DNA of 64,000 bases from Actinocrinis puniceicyclus (GTDB lineage: Bacteria; Actinomycetota; Actinomycetes; Streptomycetales; Catenulisporaceae). The notes under the pieces were generated by a model. That model did not search any database. It was given only the letters and a program-made list of their open reading frames with translations, and was not told the DNA's origin. Numbering within the stretch: the stretch's first letter is position 1; every line of letters starts with the position of its first letter. Positions 24,494 through 51,734 of the stretch are shown piece after piece. A program made the translations under genes and the position numbers. Location: the NCBI RefSeq assembly GCF_018283645.1, contig NZ_JAGSXH010000003.1, positions 1 through 64,000 on the forward strand. The letters run 5' to 3'.

Positions 24494-24805
24494 ATGGCCG
24501 GAGCCTATACAACCGACGCTGCGGTGATGCAGAAGGCGGCTCAGCAGGTGCAGCAGGTCAGCGAGGAGATCAACTCCGAACTGCGCTCCCTGATGAGCAG
24601 CCTTGAGCCGGTCGCCTCGTCCTGGAAGGGCAGTGCGGCCAGTGCTTTCCAGCAGCTGATGGCGCGTTGGCAGGAGGACGCCAGCAAGCTGACGCAGGCG
24701 CTGGACGGAATCGCCGGCATGCTCGACTCGACGACGAAGACCTACTCGCAGGCTGAAGAGTCCAACGCCTCGCAGATCAGCCAGATTCTCGGTAGCCTCG
24801 GCTGA
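24494..24805 (+). CDS. WXG100 family type VII secretion protein (first of pair)
   Basis: A 103-aa helical-hairpin protein with the WxG turn (Trp44-Lys-Gly) and a C-terminal YSQAEE that fits the YxxxD/E export signal of type VII (ESX) substrates. No signal peptide or Cys. The downstream partner begins 76 nt later; such pairs form heterodimers. No ESX machinery gene (EccC, EccD, MycP) is in the window, so the pair is orphan here. The preceding 272 bp hold no gene. Confidence 0.9.
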   Translation: MAGAYTTDAAVMQKAAQQVQQVSEEINSELRSLMSSLEPVASSWKGSAASAFQQLMARWQEDASKLTQALDGIAGMLDSTTKTYSQAEESNASQISQILGSLG

Positions 24806-24881
24806 CCGGGCGGCGGACGGTCAGCGGGTTCTTCATCCCGCCACGGGGCGGGTCTTCATACGTACGAGGGGAGTAGCGCAG

Positions 24882-25181
24882 ATGGGTTACGATCAGGGTC
24901 ACGTGATGGTGACCTTCGCGACCATCGCGGAGGCATCGCAGAACGTGCAGCGCACCTACCAGAGCCTTGAGCAGAAGCTGAACGACCTGCACCAGTTCCT
25001 GCAGCCGATGGTGGCCGAGTGGACCGGTTCGGCCGCCGAGCAGTACCAGCAGAAGCAGCAGCAGTGGAACCAGGCCCAGACGGACCTCGGCAACGTGCTG
25101 CAGACCATCGGCCGGGTGCTGGAGGACACGCACACCGCCTACACGCAGACCGAGCAGGCCAACAGCCAGGCCTGGGCCTGA
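24882..25181 (+). CDS. WXG100 family type VII secretion protein (second of pair)
   Basis: A 99-aa WXG100 protein with WTG (Trp47) at the hairpin turn and YTQTEQ near the C-terminus fitting YxxxE. Very Gln-rich around EQYQQKQQQWNQAQ. GGGGAG lies upstream of the ATG. It presumably dimerises with the upstream product and is exported by an ESX apparatus encoded elsewhere; the role is not inferable. Confidence 0.9.
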   Translation: MGYDQGHVMVTFATIAEASQNVQRTYQSLEQKLNDLHQFLQPMVAEWTGSAAEQYQQKQQQWNQAQTDLGNVLQTIGRVLEDTHTAYTQTEQANSQAWA

Positions 25182-44236: not shown

Positions 44237-45739
44237 ATGGCAGGAACGACCAACCCCGCCGCGGCGCAGCGCTGGCCGGCGCAGCGGGTGCACGCCCTCG
44301 CGCCAGACGCGTCGTCGCAGCGTGCGGGCGCGAAGCTCGCCGTGCCCACGCCGTGGAGCGGCTGGGGAGCGCGCGCCGAGTCAGGGCTGGTGTGGGGGGA
44401 CTGTAAGGGCAGCGACAACCAGCCGTATCAGGTCACTGTGGAGCTACCGGGCGGCCAGTCACCGCCCTCGTACTCGTGCTCGTGCCCCTCGCGCAAGCTC
44501 CCCTGCAAGCATGCGCTCGGCCTGCTGCTGCTGTGGTCCGGCGGCGCGGTCCCGGAGACCGACGAACCGCCGCGGCGCGTACTGGACTGGCTGGCCGCGC
44601 GCCGCGAGCGGGCGGAACGCGGGGAGGCCCGCAAGGCCGCGGCCGCGCAGAAGGCACAGGCGGCCGAGCTGGAGGACCCCGCCGCCGCGCGCAAGGCGGC
44701 CCAGGCCGCCGAGCGCCGCGCCGAGCAGCGGATACGGCGGATCGACGCCGGAGTCGACGAGCTCGAGTTATGGCTGTGCGACCAGGTCCGCTCCGGGTTG
44801 ACCGGGTTGCGCGCGGCGGGGTACCGGCCGATCGACGAGCTCGCCCGGCGGCTGGTCGACGCGCAGGCACCGGGGCTGGCAGCCCGGGTGCGCGACCTGA
44901 CGTCCTGTCTCAACGCGCCACAGGACTGGCCCGAACGCACCCTCGCCGAGTTCTCGCTGCTCTACCTGCTGGTACAGGGTTGGCGTAACCGCGACGCGCT
45001 GCCTGATGCGCTCGCCGCGACCGTGCGCCGCCGGATCGGACTCAATCCGAGCAGCGCGCAGATCGCACAGTCGGGAGAGCGCGCCGCGGGGCGTTGGCTC
45101 GTGCTCGGATGCCGGGACACGACCGCGGACAAGCTGGTGGAACGGCGGGTCTGGCTGCAACGGGAGGCGGACGGGCGCGTCGCGATGCTGCTCGCCTTCG
45201 CCCCGCCCGGGCAGGCGCTGAACCTGGCGCTGTCCGCTGGAGAGGTCCTGGACGCGGAACTGGCCTTCGCCCCGGAGGCGGCGCCGCTGCGCGCGGTCGT
45301 CATCGAGCAGGGAGCGCAGCTGCCCGATCAGGACGGATCCGCCGAGCAGCAGGGCGCGCCGGACTGCCCGCCGCGGGACGCGTCGACCCGGCTCGCCTGG
45401 ACTCCGCAGGGCGGAACGCTCGACGAGGCCGCGGCGGCTTTCGCGGCGGCGCTCGCGGCCGATCCGTGGACGCGCTTCATACCCTTCGTGCTCGGCAGTG
45501 CGCTACCGCTTCCCGCCGACGCGACGGGGGCGTGGCGGATCGCCGACGCGAAGGGCGGCGGCCACGTCTCGCTGCTGCCGGAGACCGGCGACGGGACCGA
45601 CCCCAACCGCGCCGAGCAGATCGGTCTCGCGCTGCTGGCCTGCGGCGGCGGCCACCCCTCGCCGCTGTTCGGCCTCTACCGGCCCGCAGGACTGACGCCG
45701 GTTTCCGTGTGGCGTGACGGCGAGGCGACGAACCTGTGA
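44237..45739 (+). CDS. SWIM zinc finger protein
   Basis: A 500-aa protein whose N-terminal region holds a SWIM finger, CSCPSRKLPCKH (Cys81, Cys83, Cys90, His92), which in the family binds DNA or protein partners. A charged Ala/Glu/Lys/Arg-rich helical stretch follows (about 115-160), then a helical domain (WLCDQVRSGLTGLRAAGY) and a beta-rich C-terminal half. No nuclease or ATPase motif is seen. GTGA overlap with the next gene makes it the first member of a five-gene operon. Function unknown; it may be the recognition or adaptor component. Confidence 0.85.
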   Translation: MAGTTNPAAAQRWPAQRVHALAPDASSQRAGAKLAVPTPWSGWGARAESGLVWGDCKGSDNQPYQVTVELPGGQSPPSYSCSCPSRKLPCKHALGLLLLWSGGAVPETDEPPRRVLDWLAARRERAERGEARKAAAAQKAQAAELEDPAAARKAAQAAERRAEQRIRRIDAGVDELELWLCDQVRSGLTGLRAAGYRPIDELARRLVDAQAPGLAARVRDLTSCLNAPQDWPERTLAEFSLLYLLVQGWRNRDALPDALAATVRRRIGLNPSSAQIAQSGERAAGRWLVLGCRDTTADKLVERRVWLQREADGRVAMLLAFAPPGQALNLALSAGEVLDAELAFAPEAAPLRAVVIEQGAQLPDQDGSAEQQGAPDCPPRDASTRLAWTPQGGTLDEAAAAFAAALAADPWTRFIPFVLGSALPLPADATGAWRIADAKGGGHVSLLPETGDGTDPNRAEQIGLALLACGGGHPSPLFGLYRPAGLTPVSVWRDGEATNL

Positions 45740-46911
45740 CGGACGTGACTGTGTCAGCGGCGACTGTGCCGGATGTGACTGTGCCGGATGTGATGGACGA
45801 CTGGGCGCACCTGGTCTCCACCGCTCTGGTCGGAACCGACCGGCGCCCGCTGCCCGCCGCCGGCCCCGGACCGGGTGCCGACCCCGCCGCGCAACTGCTG
45901 GCCCGGGCCGCCCTGGCAGGTCTCGCCAGGCGGGTCGGCCGCCCGCCGGAGCGCTTCGAGGGCGCACTGCCGCAACCTGCTCCGCCTGATCCGCGGCCTG
46001 CGTTACCGCAAGCCGCCGCGCGCCGGCTACGCACCATCCTCGATTCCTATCCCAAGTACCTGCCGGAATGGCTCGCCGCCGTGCGGCGCGCCGGGTTCCG
46101 GCTGCCCGCGGCCTACCTGCCGCCGCTGCTCGACATCGGCCGAACCAATATGCTGATCCGCGCCGACCTCGCCGCGGTGCTCGCCGAACCCGGGCGCTGG
46201 CTCGCCGCGGCGAGCGGCAACTGGCGGTACCTGCTGCGTGAGGCCCGCGCGGAAGCCCGGCCGGAGGACTGGCAGGGCGCCGACCCGGACGCCCGGGTCT
46301 GCTATGTCGCAGGTCTCTACCTCAGCGACCCGCAGGCCGCCCGGCGGCTGATCCGGCAGGACTGGGCCGCGCAGCGGGCTGCGGTCAAGCTCGGGCTGCT
46401 GGCGTTGGTGTCCCGATACCCGGACCCGGACGACGTGTCCTTCGTGCAGGGCCTGCTCAAGGACCCGTCGAAACAGGTACGCGACGAGGCCACGCTGCTG
46501 GCCGGCGGCCTGGAGCGGCGCAGCGCGAAGCCGCCGCCACCCGACTTCACCGCCGAGGTCGCCCGCCTGCTGGCCGCGAACCGTGGCGTAGGGCGCGACC
46601 TGCACAACTTCGTGATGACCCGCAGCGGTGAGCCCTGGCCGCACGACGGCGCGCTGCTGCTGATCGACGCGCTGGCCGAACGCGGCGGGCGCGCCGCCAA
46701 GGCCGCGTGGTCGGACTGGATCGCCGAGCAGGTGCAGACCGCCGTCGCCGACAACGCCCCGTTGACCGTGCGCGACAGGGTCGCCGGGCTGGTCGCAGAC
46801 CAGGCCGTGGCGGCGGCGCTGGAGGGCGCCGCGCCGCGGGTCGACTTCGCGGCCATGCTCGCGCTGCTGGACTTCCGCCGCGACATGCTCGCCGAACTGC
46901 GCCTCTCTTAA
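45736..46911 (+). CDS. DUF5691 family protein (helical-repeat-like)
   Basis: A 391-aa, mostly helical protein with regularly spaced Leu/Ala/Arg-rich helices (for example LLARAALAGLARRVGRP, LARAD-type segments, DEATLLAGGLERR) that suggest a HEAT-like scaffold. No catalytic motif. DUF5691 genes are found next to SWIM, MoxR and VWA genes in several bacteria; function unknown. GTG 45736 overlaps the SWIM stop by 4 nt. The first about 20 residues are a Val/Thr/Asp repeat (TVPDVTVPDV). Confidence 0.8.
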   Translation: MTDVTVSAATVPDVTVPDVMDDWAHLVSTALVGTDRRPLPAAGPGPGADPAAQLLARAALAGLARRVGRPPERFEGALPQPAPPDPRPALPQAAARRLRTILDSYPKYLPEWLAAVRRAGFRLPAAYLPPLLDIGRTNMLIRADLAAVLAEPGRWLAAASGNWRYLLREARAEARPEDWQGADPDARVCYVAGLYLSDPQAARRLIRQDWAAQRAAVKLGLLALVSRYPDPDDVSFVQGLLKDPSKQVRDEATLLAGGLERRSAKPPPPDFTAEVARLLAANRGVGRDLHNFVMTRSGEPWPHDGALLLIDALAERGGRAAKAAWSDWIAEQVQTAVADNAPLTVRDRVAGLVADQAVAAALEGAAPRVDFAAMLALLDFRRDMLAELRLS

Positions 46912-46987
46912 CAGGGCCCGCACATACCCCGCCCCGCACGCTCGACCGCGCCCGCACATCCGTGACGACAGGCAGGAACCGCCGACG

Positions 46988-48094
46988 ATGACCACCCCGC
47001 TGTCCGAACCAGCACCCGCCGTCCTGCGCCCGCACGCCGAGGACGCGTACGCCCGCGAACTCGACGCGCTCGCCAAGGGCGACACGCTGGCGCGCCCGCC
47101 GCGCTGGAACCTCTCCCCCCAGGCGGTGACCACCTACCTGCTCGGTGGCCGCGCCGCGGACGGCACCGAGATCACCCCGAAGTACATCGGCCCGCGCCGG
47201 CTGATCGAGGTCGCCGTCGCGACGCTGGCCACCGACCGGGCGCTGCTGCTGCTCGGGGTGCCGGGAACCGCGAAGAGCTGGGTCTCCGAGCACCTGGCCG
47301 CCGCGGTGAGCGGAGACTCGACGCTGCTGGTGCAGGGCACCGCGGGTACCTCCGAGGAGTCGATGCGCTACGGCTGGAACTACGCGCAGCTGCTCGCGCA
47401 CGGCCCCTCCCGCGAGGCGCTGACATCCTCTCCGCTGATGACCGCGATGGCCGCCGGAAAGGTCGCCCGGATCGAGGAGCTGACGCGCATCCCGGCCGAC
47501 GTGCAGGACACGCTGATCACCATCCTGTCCGAGAAGACCCTGCCGATTCCCGAACTCGGCGACGAGGTGCAGGCCGTCAAGGGTTTCACCGTGATCGCCA
47601 CCGCCAACGACCGCGACCGCGGGGTCAACGACCTTTCCTCCGCGCTGCGCCGCCGTTTCAACACCGTGGTGCTGCCGCTGCCGGCCAGCGCCGAGGACGA
47701 GGTGCGGATCGTCTCCCGGCGTGTCGAGGAGCTGGGCCGCACCCTGGAACTGCCCGACGTCCCGGCCGCGCAGCAGGAGATCCGCCGCGTGGTCACCGTG
47801 TTCCGCGAACTGCGGTCCGGGCTGACCGAGGACGGCCGCACCAAGCTCAAGTCCCCCTCCGGCACCCTCTCTCCGGCCGAGGCGATCTCCGTGCTCACCG
47901 GCGGCATCGCGCTGGCCGCGCACTTCGGCGACGGGACGCTGCGCCCGCACGACGTGGCGGCGGGCATCCTCGGCGCGGTGGTCAAGGACCCGTCCGCGGA
48001 CCCGGTGGTCTGGCGCGAGTATCTCGAGACGGTGGTGCGGTCGCGCGACGGCTGGTCCGGCTTCTACGAGGCATGCCGGGAGCTGTCGGCGTGA
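46988..48094 (+). CDS. MoxR-type AAA+ ATPase
   Basis: A 368-aa AAA+ protein with Walker A GVPGTAKS (90-97), sensor-1 ATANDRDRG (Asn207) and arginine finger region SSALRRRF (218-224). At the Walker B position it reads RIEELTR (161-167), so the usual Asp is replaced by Glu. MoxR ATPases remodel or load metals into partner proteins through VWA-domain proteins (RavA-ViaA, NorQ-NorD, CbbQ-CbbO). Here the VWA partner is two genes downstream. A 76-nt gap precedes the ATG. The 3' end overlaps the DUF5682 start by GTGA. Confidence 0.9.
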   Translation: MTTPLSEPAPAVLRPHAEDAYARELDALAKGDTLARPPRWNLSPQAVTTYLLGGRAADGTEITPKYIGPRRLIEVAVATLATDRALLLLGVPGTAKSWVSEHLAAAVSGDSTLLVQGTAGTSEESMRYGWNYAQLLAHGPSREALTSSPLMTAMAAGKVARIEELTRIPADVQDTLITILSEKTLPIPELGDEVQAVKGFTVIATANDRDRGVNDLSSALRRRFNTVVLPLPASAEDEVRIVSRRVEELGRTLELPDVPAAQQEIRRVVTVFRELRSGLTEDGRTKLKSPSGTLSPAEAISVLTGGIALAAHFGDGTLRPHDVAAGILGAVVKDPSADPVVWREYLETVVRSRDGWSGFYEACRELSA

Positions 48095-50505
48095 ACCACG
48101 GCGGCGCGCGAGTCGTTCTGTTGGGCGTAAGGCACCACGGTCCGGGTTCGGCCCGCGCGGTGTCGGCGGCGCTGTCGGCCTTCGAACCCGACAGGATCCT
48201 GATCGAAGGGCCGGCCGACGCCGATCCGCTCATCCCGCTGGCCGGCGCGGAGGGCATGGAGCCGCCGGTCGCCCTGCTCGCCTACCGGGAGCAGGATCCG
48301 AAGGTCTCCGCGTTCTGGCCGTTCGCGGGCTTCTCGCCGGAGTGGATCGCACTGCGGTACGCGATCGAGCGAGGGATCGGCGTCGGGTTCTGCGACCTGC
48401 CGGCCGCGGCCTCGCTGTCTCAGGACACGAAGGCGCAGGCGCGCGATCGGGATCGGGACCGGACCGGGGACGGCCCCGATCCGATCGCGCGCCTGGCCGA
48501 GGCCGCCGGCTACGCCGATGCGGAGACGTGGTGGGAGGACGTCGTCGAGCACCGCGGCGGCCGATCCGGCCCGCGCGAGGGAGCGCGACAAGCGGACGGA
48601 GGGGATTCGCTCGCAGCGTTCGACGCCATCGCCGAAGCCATGGCGGCCGTGCGCGAACACGAGCCGACACCGGAACGCGACGCGCTGCGTGAGGCACACA
48701 TGCGCAGTGTGCTTCGCGCGGCGCTCGCGGAAGGCGCGCGGCGCGTCGCCGTGGTCTGCGGCGCATACCACGTCCCGGCGCTGTCAGGGATCTGTGACGG
48801 ACGCGAGGCGCAGCCCCCGGCGCAGGCTGCGGACAAGGCGCTGTTGGCGGCGCTGCCCAAGCAGACCAAGGCCACTGCGACCAAGCTGACGTGGGTACCG
48901 TGGACGCACAGCCGGCTGTCGTACCACTCCGGCTACGGCGCCGGCATCGGCTCGCCGGGTTGGTACCGGCACCTGTTCGAGACGGACGACCACGTCACGG
49001 AGCGCTGGCTCGCCTCGGTCGCGCGGTTGCTGCGGGACGAGCGGCACCCGGTCTCCAGCGCGCACCTGATCGAGGCGACCAGGCTCGCGCGCGCGCTGGC
49101 CGCGTTGCGCGGACGGCCGCTGCCGGGCCTGGCCGAACTGACCGAGGCGACCGTCGCCGTGCTCTGCGAAGGCCGCGAGGAGCCGCTGGCGCTGATCGGC
49201 CGGGAACTGGTCGTCGGCGAGGATCTCGGCACGGTTCCGGGCGGCGTGCCGACCGTGCCGCTGGCCGCCGACCTGGCCCGCGAGGCCAAGCGGCTGCGCG
49301 TGCCCAGGACCGCGACGCGCAAGCAGTACGACCTGGACCTGCGCAACGCCACCGACCTGGAGCGCTCGAAGCTGTTCCACCGGCTGGGACTGCTGGGCGT
49401 GGACTGGGCCGTGGCGGTCGGCTCCCGCTCCGCGGGCACCTTCCGCGAGTCCTGGGACGTGACCTGGGAACCGCTGTTCGAGGTCCGGCTGGTGGAGGCG
49501 GCGGTGTGGGGGACCACGGTGCAGTCCGCCGCGACCGCGAAGGCGCTGGAAACGGCCGAGCAGACCGAGACGCTGGGCTCGCTCACCGTTCTGGTGCAGC
49601 GCTGCCTGACCGCGGACCTGCCCGGCGCGGTTGATCCGCTCATAGCTCAGGTGCAGAACCGCGCCGCGCTGGACACCGACATCGCCGACCTGGCCACCGC
49701 GTTGCCGCCGCTGGCCGGCATCCTGCGTTACGGAGACGTGCGCGGTACTCGCGCGGACGGCCTGCGCACCGTCGTGCACGGCATCGCGGTACGTATCGCC
49801 ATCGGCCTGCCGCCGGCTTGCGTCAATGTCGATGACGACGCCGCCCACGCCCTGGCTCCGTCGCTCGCCAAGGTGCACGCGGCGATCCAGACCCTTGACG
49901 AACCGGCGATCCGCGATCCGTGGATGCGGGCGCTGCGACAGGTCGCGGACCTCGGCGGCGCGGGGGCGCACGGACTGCTCGCGGGCCGCGCCGCCAGGCT
50001 GCTCAGCGACGCCGGAGTTCTCGGCGCCGAGGCGGTCGCGGCGCTGATGGCCAGGGCGCTGTCCCGCGGCGGGGAGCCCGCCGGCGCCGCCGGATGGCTG
50101 GAAGGACTCCTCGCGGGCTCAGGGCTCGTGCTCGCCCATGACAAGGCCCTGCTCCGGCTGATCGACGACTGGCTCGCCGGGCTGGACGCCGACCGCTTCG
50201 AGCACGTGGTGCCGTTGCTGCGCCGCACCTTCGCGACCTTCACCGCGCCCGAACGCCGCACGATCGGCGAACGGGTCGCGCACCTGGGCGCCCCGGACGG
50301 CGCGTCCGCGCTCGCCGAGCGATCCGCGCCGCCGACCGGTGTCGCGGCGGACTGGTTCGCCGCGGCGCTGCCGACCGTGCGGCTGCTGCTGACCGGCAGC
50401 CCTTCGCATCCCGGCAGCCCTTCGCATCCCGGCAGCCCTTCGCATCCCGGCGGCGCTGTATCCGCCGAAGTCGCACCGACCCGGAAACTGGAGCCCGCGC
50501 CGTGA
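48091..50505 (+). CDS. DUF5682 family protein
   Basis: An 804-aa protein starting with VVLLGVRHHGPGSARAV and ILIEGPADADPLIPL. This beta-strand/HHGPGS/IEGP pattern recalls the TraB/ChaN-like fold, whose members bind metal and may be proteases or substrate binders; that link is tentative. A second H motif, VVCGAYHVPAL, lies about residue 225. The C-terminal half is helical, ending in a GSPSHP repeat tail. GTG 48091 has GGGAG 8 nt upstream and overlaps the MoxR stop, preferred over ATG 48073. It ends with GTGA into the VWA gene. Confidence 0.82.
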   Translation: MNHGGARVVLLGVRHHGPGSARAVSAALSAFEPDRILIEGPADADPLIPLAGAEGMEPPVALLAYREQDPKVSAFWPFAGFSPEWIALRYAIERGIGVGFCDLPAAASLSQDTKAQARDRDRDRTGDGPDPIARLAEAAGYADAETWWEDVVEHRGGRSGPREGARQADGGDSLAAFDAIAEAMAAVREHEPTPERDALREAHMRSVLRAALAEGARRVAVVCGAYHVPALSGICDGREAQPPAQAADKALLAALPKQTKATATKLTWVPWTHSRLSYHSGYGAGIGSPGWYRHLFETDDHVTERWLASVARLLRDERHPVSSAHLIEATRLARALAALRGRPLPGLAELTEATVAVLCEGREEPLALIGRELVVGEDLGTVPGGVPTVPLAADLAREAKRLRVPRTATRKQYDLDLRNATDLERSKLFHRLGLLGVDWAVAVGSRSAGTFRESWDVTWEPLFEVRLVEAAVWGTTVQSAATAKALETAEQTETLGSLTVLVQRCLTADLPGAVDPLIAQVQNRAALDTDIADLATALPPLAGILRYGDVRGTRADGLRTVVHGIAVRIAIGLPPACVNVDDDAAHALAPSLAKVHAAIQTLDEPAIRDPWMRALRQVADLGGAGAHGLLAGRAARLLSDAGVLGAEAVAALMARALSRGGEPAGAAGWLEGLLAGSGLVLAHDKALLRLIDDWLAGLDADRFEHVVPLLRRTFATFTAPERRTIGERVAHLGAPDGASALAERSAPPTGVAADWFAAALPTVRLLLTGSPSHPGSPSHPGSPSHPGGAVSAEVAPTRKLEPAP
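50395..50448 (+). repeat. 18-bp perfect tandem repeat x3 at the DUF5682 C-terminus
   Basis: GGCAGCCCTTCGCATCCC repeats at 50395, 50413 and 50431 with no change. It is in frame and encodes GSPSHP three times just before the C-terminus. Confidence 0.97.
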
Positions 50506-51734
50506 CCGCAACCGACCTCACGCCGGCGTCCGGCGAGGCCGACCCCGGCGACAAGTCCCCGCGGGCCGAGCGGCTGCGCCGCTGGCGGCTCGTGCTCGGC
50601 GGCGAGGCGGAGAGCGCCTGCGGTGGTCTCGGCGGCCGCGACCAGCGCATGGACAACGCGCTCGACGCGCTCTACGCCGCCGCGGCCGACGGCGGCGCCG
50701 CTTCGCGTATCCGTCCCGGCGCCCGTGGGGAGCGAAGCGCCGGGCTCCAGGCTTCCGCGCCGAACGTGGCCCGCTGGCTCGGCGACATCCGCGAGTTCTT
50801 CCCCAGCTCGGTCGTGCAGGTCATGCAGCGTGACGCGGTGGATCGGCTGAACCTGCGCCAGTTGCTGCTGGAACCGGAGCTTCTCGGCGCGGTGGAACCC
50901 GACGTTCATCTCGTCGGCACCCTGCTCTCCCTGAACCGGCTGATGCCCGAGGAGACCAAGCAGACAGCGCGTCAAGTCGTGCGTACCGTCGTCGACGACC
51001 TCGAACGCCGCCTCGCGCAGGGCTTCCGCGCGGCTGTCACCGGGGCACTCAACCGGGCCGCGCGCACGAACCGACCGCAGCCGCGCGACATCGACTGGAA
51101 CCGGACCATCCGCGCCAACCTCAGGCACTATCAGCCGGAGTACCGCACCGTGGTACCTGAGCGGCTGGTCGGTTACGCGCGCGCTGCGAACACGGTCAAA
51201 CGCGACGTCGTGCTCGCCATCGACCAGTCCGGCTCGATGGCCGCCTCAGTCGTCTACGCCTCGCTGTTCGGCGCGGTTCTCGCCTCGATGAAGACTCTGC
51301 GCACGTCGCTGGTGGTCTTCGACACCGAGGTGGTGGACCTGACCCCCGTGCTCGCCGATCCGGTCGAGGTGCTGTTCGGCACGCAGTTGGGCGGCGGTAC
51401 GGACATCAACCGGGCGGTCGCCTACTGCCAGTCGCTGATCGGCCGCCCCGCGGACACCATCTTCATCCTGATTTCCGACCTGTACGAGGGTGGGGTCCGC
51501 GACGAGCTGATGCGCAGGATGGCCGAGATGACCGCGGCCGGAGTCCAGTGCATCGCGCTGCTGGCACTGAGCGACGAGGGCGCGCCCTCCTTCGATCAGC
51601 GCAACGCGGCCGCGCTGGCCGAGCTCGGCGTCCCGGCGTTCGCCTGTACCCCGGACCGCTTCGGCCCGCTGATGGCCGCGGCCATCGAACGACGCGACCT
51701 GGCGCCCTACGCGGCTGCGGACCGAGCCGGCTGA
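50502..51734 (+). CDS. VWA-domain protein, MoxR partner
   Basis: A 410-aa soluble protein. An N-terminal helical region (about 1-230) precedes a von Willebrand A domain with an intact metal-ion-dependent adhesion site: DQSGS (241-245), GGGTD and ISDLYEGG. No signal peptide or membrane helix, so it works in the cytoplasm. GTG 50502 overlaps the DUF5682 stop by 4 nt. As in ViaA or NorD, the VWA domain probably links the MoxR ring to its target. It is the last gene of the operon. Confidence 0.9.
   Translation: MTATDLTPASGEADPGDKSPRAERLRRWRLVLGGEAESACGGLGGRDQRMDNALDALYAAAADGGAASRIRPGARGERSAGLQASAPNVARWLGDIREFFPSSVVQVMQRDAVDRLNLRQLLLEPELLGAVEPDVHLVGTLLSLNRLMPEETKQTARQVVRTVVDDLERRLAQGFRAAVTGALNRAARTNRPQPRDIDWNRTIRANLRHYQPEYRTVVPERLVGYARAANTVKRDVVLAIDQSGSMAASVVYASLFGAVLASMKTLRTSLVVFDTEVVDLTPVLADPVEVLFGTQLGGGTDINRAVAYCQSLIGRPADTIFILISDLYEGGVRDELMRRMAEMTAAGVQCIALLALSDEGAPSFDQRNAAALAELGVPAFACTPDRFGPLMAAAIERRDLAPYAAADRAG

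Follow-up and report, generated by a model that had tools for sequence, protein, structure and literature searches.

A five-gene unit of Actinocrinis puniceicyclus related to the yehL, yehM and yehP genes of Escherichia coli, and a candidate active site in its DUF5682 protein

Gene Content and Organization of the Unit

The stretch of DNA analyzed here, hereafter called the window, consists of positions 1–64,000 of the forward strand of contig NZ_JAGSXH010000003.1 in the genome of Actinocrinis puniceicyclus (GCF_018283645.1). It carries a unit of five genes on the + strand, encoding a SWIM zinc-finger protein of 500 amino acids (aa) (44237..45739; Pfam SWIM, E 1.4e-7), a DUF5691 protein of 391 aa, which is shortened internally with respect to its family (45736..46911; Pfam DUF5691, E 6.7e-60), a MoxR-type AAA+ ATPase of 368 aa homologous to YehL of Escherichia coli (46988..48094; Pfam AAA_5, E 6.5e-37), a DUF5682 protein homologous to YehM (48091..50505; Pfam, E 3.6e-250), and a CoxE-type VWA protein of 410 aa homologous to YehP (50502..51734; Pfam VWA_CoxE, E 3.7e-54). 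The original prediction, made from the sequence alone, had proposed these families in this order and on a single strand, and all five open reading frames and Pfam matches agree with it.

The SWIM and DUF5691 genes, like the DUF5682 and VWA genes, overlap by 4 nt at a GTGA, and a gap of 76 nt separates the DUF5691 gene from the MoxR gene. The third GTGA overlap originally proposed, that between the MoxR and DUF5682 genes, exists only if DUF5682 starts at GTG 48091 (804 aa), since a start at ATG 48073 (810 aa) gives an overlap of 22 nt. The GTG start is favored because it is preceded by GGGAG and because the homologs begin near this position. The residue numbers of DUF5682 given below are counted from ATG 48073. 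The C-terminal tail of this protein carries a threefold GSPSHP repeat (window 50395-50451), located outside the part matched by the family profile. As the best mean Kyte–Doolittle hydropathy over 19 residues is about 1.6 or lower in each of the five proteins, no membrane helix is evident in any of them, as had been claimed.

Conservation and Distribution

A scan for DUF5682 relatives in one genome per species yielded at least 585 stretches. The best 80 of these, i.e., those most similar to the window, make up the locus set used here, which represents the window's own type because it was chosen by this similarity. The set spans Actinomycetota, Cyanobacteriota, Planctomycetota, Chloroflexota, Bacteroidota, and Gammaproteobacteria. 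All five genes lie within a few kilobases of each other in 71 of the 80 loci; eight of the other nine loci are cut by contig ends, and the ninth, from a Nostocaceae metagenome-assembled genome which is itself cut upstream (L049, 275-2539), has a DUF5682 gene with no VWA gene downstream. The five genes are also found together on Deinococcus and Rhizobium plasmids. No VWA gene is listed past DUF5682 on Methylosinus pOB3b3 (L202:10217-11805), where the gene table of PLSDB is incomplete and the gene may simply be unlisted.

In a sample of 199 Actinomycetota genomes, DUF5682 was identified in 17 and DUF5691 (over the cut-off) in 16, all of which are among these 17. The two families therefore co-occur more than expected by chance, in counts left uncorrected for the kinship among the genomes. 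The neighborhood search that the original prediction had named as a check shows that the five families do travel together, so that the refuting condition set there, rare co-occurrence, does not apply. Among phages, a single record matched: a short and dubious 14-kb faecal sequence labelled Bacteriophage sp., possibly bacterial DNA, which carries a relative of DUF5682 with 28% identity (MT835988.1:10965-12755).

Kinship with the yeh Genes of E. coli

YehL is a named subfamily of the MoxR ATPases (PMC3893208). The MoxR protein of the window is 39% identical to E. coli YehL over 359 aa (E 2.9e-73), and its matches with NorQ (E 2.1e-7) and midasin (E about 1e-16) are far weaker. NorQ is its nearest relative with a solved structure apart from midasin. 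In this comparison with YehL, NorQ, and midasin, the sequence places the window MoxR in the YehL subfamily. The kinship extends to the next two genes, since the window DUF5682 is 28% identical to YehM over 584 aa (E 1.5e-34) and the VWA protein shares 36% identity with YehP across 377 aa (E 5.9e-77). The yeh genes of E. coli K-12 are arranged in the order yehI (encoding a DUF4132 protein), yehK, yehL, yehM, yehP, and yehQ, and YehQ is a SWIM protein. The local gene structure of the YehL type, namely MoxR, DUF5682, and VWA genes in identical order accompanied by a SWIM gene, is thus present in the window. The E. coli region differs from it in having DUF4132/WGR proteins and YehQ in place of DUF5691 and the SWIM protein of the window, and no similarity was detected between YehQ and the window SWIM protein outside the finger.

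The general features of a MoxR–VWA pair are all intact. The MoxR protein carries a Walker A motif (GVPGTAKS), an EELTR motif, a sensor 1 (ATAND), and an arginine finger (SALRRRF), which are kept in 77 loci, and the MIDAS site of the VWA protein (DQSGS, GGGTD, ISD), which is conserved among its homologs, is complete. These motifs bear out the suggestion that the MoxR and VWA proteins form the motor of the unit. On the basis of these comparisons, the five genes appear to be an actinobacterial form of an uncharacterised YehL-type MoxR/VWA system sharing its core with YehL, YehM, YehP, and possibly YehQ. The literature searched gave no function for the yeh genes and names neither DUF5682 nor DUF5691. 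The yehM gene is present in 5303 of 5426 E. coli genomes (98%), almost always on the chromosome; in one strain, an annotated IS5-family transposase lies within it (NZ_CP137737.1:1867916-1871259).

Three Architectures and Their Common Core

Three architectures were distinguished, all of which comprise SWIM, MoxR, DUF5682, and VWA; type I adds DUF5691, and types II and III add DUF4132. Type I, that of the window, has the order SWIM, DUF5691, MoxR, DUF5682, VWA, while type II, that of E. coli, has the order DUF4132/WGR, MoxR, DUF5682, VWA, SWIM. Type III has a DUF4132 gene (seen in locus L041), a gene for a large protein of some 1,700 aa, MoxR, DUF5682 and VWA fused in one protein (DUF5682::VWA, found in four loci), and a SWIM finger encoded downstream. 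Both the existence of these architectures and the relation with the yeh genes are additions to the original prediction. Within type I, SWIM and DUF5691 are joined in a single protein at one locus, and in the Streptomyces group the two genes are inverted and read divergently. One type II unit (locus L034, genome G017) is adjoined by a gene for a trypsin-like protease and a gene for a PknG-like kinase (L034:14782-18646).

The pairwise distances of the MoxR, DUF5682, and VWA proteins of 22 loci are correlated (r 0.95–0.96), and in each of the three families the type I proteins group cleanly together. Since DUF5682 is common to all three architectures and fused to VWA in one of them, it looks like a stable subunit rather than a passing client. 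The original suggestion that DUF5682 might itself be the transient client of the motor is not supported, given its fusion to VWA and its co-variation with MoxR and VWA.

Comparison of the accessory proteins (SWIM, DUF5691, DUF4132, and the large type III protein) across the three types detected no homology. In the window SWIM protein, the finger (C81-x-C83 ... C90-x-H92) consists of residues that are invariant across 44 homologs. Its AlphaFold model (pLDDT 90.2) shows a predicted beta-rich C-terminal domain, for which Foldseek gave weak tandem OB-fold-like matches (HIN/LEF-3/Teb1, best E 0.01), and we propose that this protein may be a recognition or adaptor subunit. The window DUF5691 matches columns 2-239 and 381-491 of the 491 columns of its profile, and columns 240-380 are absent. 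The previously proposed role of this protein as a helical scaffold, which we retain as a proposal, is consistent with an alphaRep/HEAT match (E 5e-4), although this signal is weak.

The N-Terminal Domain of DUF5682

DUF5682 begins with an alpha/beta domain of about 265 aa, containing GxRHH, E, RExxM, and GxxH motifs, and continues as an alpha-helical solenoid. Residues H21, H22, E45, E90, D108, E159, R206, E207, M210, G230, and H233 are invariant in 22 sequences with identities to the window protein down to 19%. In the AlphaFold model, which is confident (pLDDT 89.4), GxRHH lies past strand 1 and the Glu within strand 2; a long helix contains RExxM, and a later strand precedes GxxH. The hydrolases of the TIKI/TraB/ChaN superfamily carry their motifs in that order on a similar alpha/beta layout. 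The TIKI-type set (in order, GxxH, Glu, an R-x-x-x-M helix, and a second GxxH) is invariant or nearly so in the 22 sequences, and its patterns were found in the 80 loci. DUF5682 differs from this superfamily in its large C-terminal helical solenoid and in additional invariants (FSPEW, D108). A PDB sequence search with DUF5682 profiles gave no meaningful match, and no member of the TraB family was found in the genome carrying the window. The ordered motifs and the predicted layout are suggestive of a resemblance between the N-terminal domain and the TIKI/TraB/ChaN hydrolases, and the invariant residues would then form a candidate active site.

Proposed Function and Alternative Explanations

We consider it on balance probable that the unit is an ATP-gated remodeling machine of the YehL-type MoxR/VWA kind which controls a TIKI-like enzyme. 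The MoxR ring, acting as the motor, and the VWA protein, acting as the adaptor, would form a stable complex with DUF5682, the N-terminal domain of which would probably be a metal-dependent TIKI/TraB/ChaN-like hydrolase and the C-terminal part a helical solenoid. The target would be recruited by the SWIM protein, together with DUF5691 in units of the window type or with DUF4132 in those of the E. coli type. By analogy with NorQD, in which the MoxR ring moves its VWA partner (PMC13036017), ATP hydrolysis by MoxR might move the VWA protein so that the active site of DUF5682 is exposed, loaded, or gated. What the comparisons above show is the gene content, the homology with YehL, YehM, and YehP, the conserved motifs, the fusion, and the co-variation; from these we infer that a complex exists, that DUF5682 acts as an enzyme, and that SWIM and DUF5691 have the roles proposed.

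Several results weigh against this proposal. The Pfam matches to TraB or ChaN, found in 5 of 10 divergent N-terminal domains (E 0.011–0.67), are below the threshold and come from non-independent sequences. Profile–profile tests with TraB, EreA, and ChaN, run against local decoys and with a very small ChaN profile, gave no significant match: TraB ranked 1st of 33 with the full and the combined type II + III profiles, at a non-significant probability of about 1–2%, but 10th with the type II profile alone and 4th with type III alone. The TraB alignment covers the RExxM...GxxH stretch. A Foldseek search with the whole DUF5682 model, which was dominated by the helical part, returned helical repeats only and none at E <= 0.001. 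In addition, locus L040 carries VWA, MoxR, and DUF5682 but no recognizable SWIM finger in the stretch read. As to the TraB/ChaN likeness originally put forward, the motif order and the recurrent weak Pfam matches speak for it, while no significant profile or structure match was obtained.

Another possibility is that the MoxR–VWA pair is a maturation chaperone which loads DUF5682 with metal or folds it and then releases it, so that DUF5682 acts alone. NorQ, which with NorD is the closest well-studied relative with a solved structure, drives the insertion of metal into its target (PMC13036017), and a site of the TIKI type would depend on a metal. The DUF5682::VWA fusion of type III and the co-variation of the subunits (r 0.96) are better suited to a permanent subunit, and we regard this explanation as rather unlikely.

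The unit might also be an anti-phage or conflict system, as are the MoxR-vWA ternary systems (Kaur et al., 2020; PMC7159879), an idea which the original prediction had likewise raised. Its patchy distribution in the phylum (17/199 genomes), its presence at a given chromosomal site in some genomes and absence from it in others, and the occurrence of two or more unit types in single genomes would be in line with this idea. The VMAP, iSTAND, and FtsH ternary systems resemble the unit in having MoxR, vWA, and a third component, but the third place is taken here by DUF5682. No VMAP, iSTAND, or FtsH domain was detected over the Pfam cut-off in the five window proteins, and a bpMoxR match remained below it; the main text on these systems does not mention DUF5682, SWIM, DUF4132, or YehL (PMC7159879). 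PADLOC profiles gave only two weak ATPase matches with the five proteins (E 0.014 and 0.057), one scan of viral contigs confirmed no relative, and the phage record mentioned above is dubious. Given also the fixed synteny across Streptomycetales and relatives and the nearly constant presence of yehM on the E. coli chromosome, a conflict role receives little support and seems improbable.

The original prediction had further envisaged stress, including DNA damage. As regards type II, a link with the DdrO response of Deinococcus has been reported for DUF4132/WGR proteins, and one with the LexA regulon of E. coli for MolR (PMC8533742). A LexA-like site (CTGGATAAAATTACAG, with one mismatch to CTGTN8ACAG) was observed 25 bp upstream of yehF in the yeh region of E. 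coli (L002:450-465). Control of type I units by DNA damage was dropped, since SOS boxes upstream of them occur at chance level (7 seen, 7.3 expected).

Less probable still than a conflict role is an inactive, scaffolding DUF5682 in a machine that would do no more than remodel complexes of proteins or nucleoproteins, to which SWIM would bind. The solenoid accounts for about two thirds of DUF5682, and the OB-fold-like and HEAT signals of the SWIM protein and DUF5691, weak as they are, would suit such a role, but the invariant His, Glu, and Arg residues of the N-terminal domain, kept at identities down to 19%, argue for a functional site there.

In the window, as in Streptomycetales, the unit lies between icmB and sucCD in the order pcrA-icmB-[unit]-sucCD, the names having been given by eye from the proteins. 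In three genomes (G001, G005, and G015), pcrA, icmB, and sucCD occur together with the unit absent at that site; the flanking genes are different in other phyla, and neither icmB nor sucCD accompanies the E. coli yeh region. Because its neighbors stay together without it, the unit is a self-contained module which pcrA, icmB, and sucCD do not need. The gene order might suggest an assembly factor for the B12-dependent mutase subunit IcmB or the succinyl-CoA synthetase SucCD, but both were rejected as adjacent clients, since they remain where the unit is missing, and this explanation is very unlikely. The earlier statement that no obvious client enzyme lies alongside holds, as no conserved external client emerged across the neighborhoods compared. 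The unit resembles NorQ/NorD, CbbQ/CbbO, and RavA/ViaA in pairing a MoxR AAA+ protein with a VWA protein, but in those systems the client enzymes are recognizable; to our knowledge, they have no DUF5682, DUF5691, or SWIM partner. Elsewhere in the window, a pair of small genes (24494-25181) encodes products judged by eye to be WXG100-like.

Significance

Seven MoxR subfamilies have been named, one of which is YehL. With the SWIM/MoxR/DUF5682/VWA set occurring across phyla and a candidate active site located in YehM, the function of the yeh genes becomes open to experiment in E. coli K-12. Our more specific and more tentative suggestion is that DUF5682/YehM might be a TIKI-like hydrolase, for instance a peptidase, that is gated by a MoxR–VWA motor, fed by a SWIM adaptor, and combined with exchangeable scaffolds. 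This would be an undescribed kind of ATP-dependent enzyme machine. If this is true, hydrolases gated by MoxR–VWA would occur widely among bacteria, and nearly every E. coli would have one.

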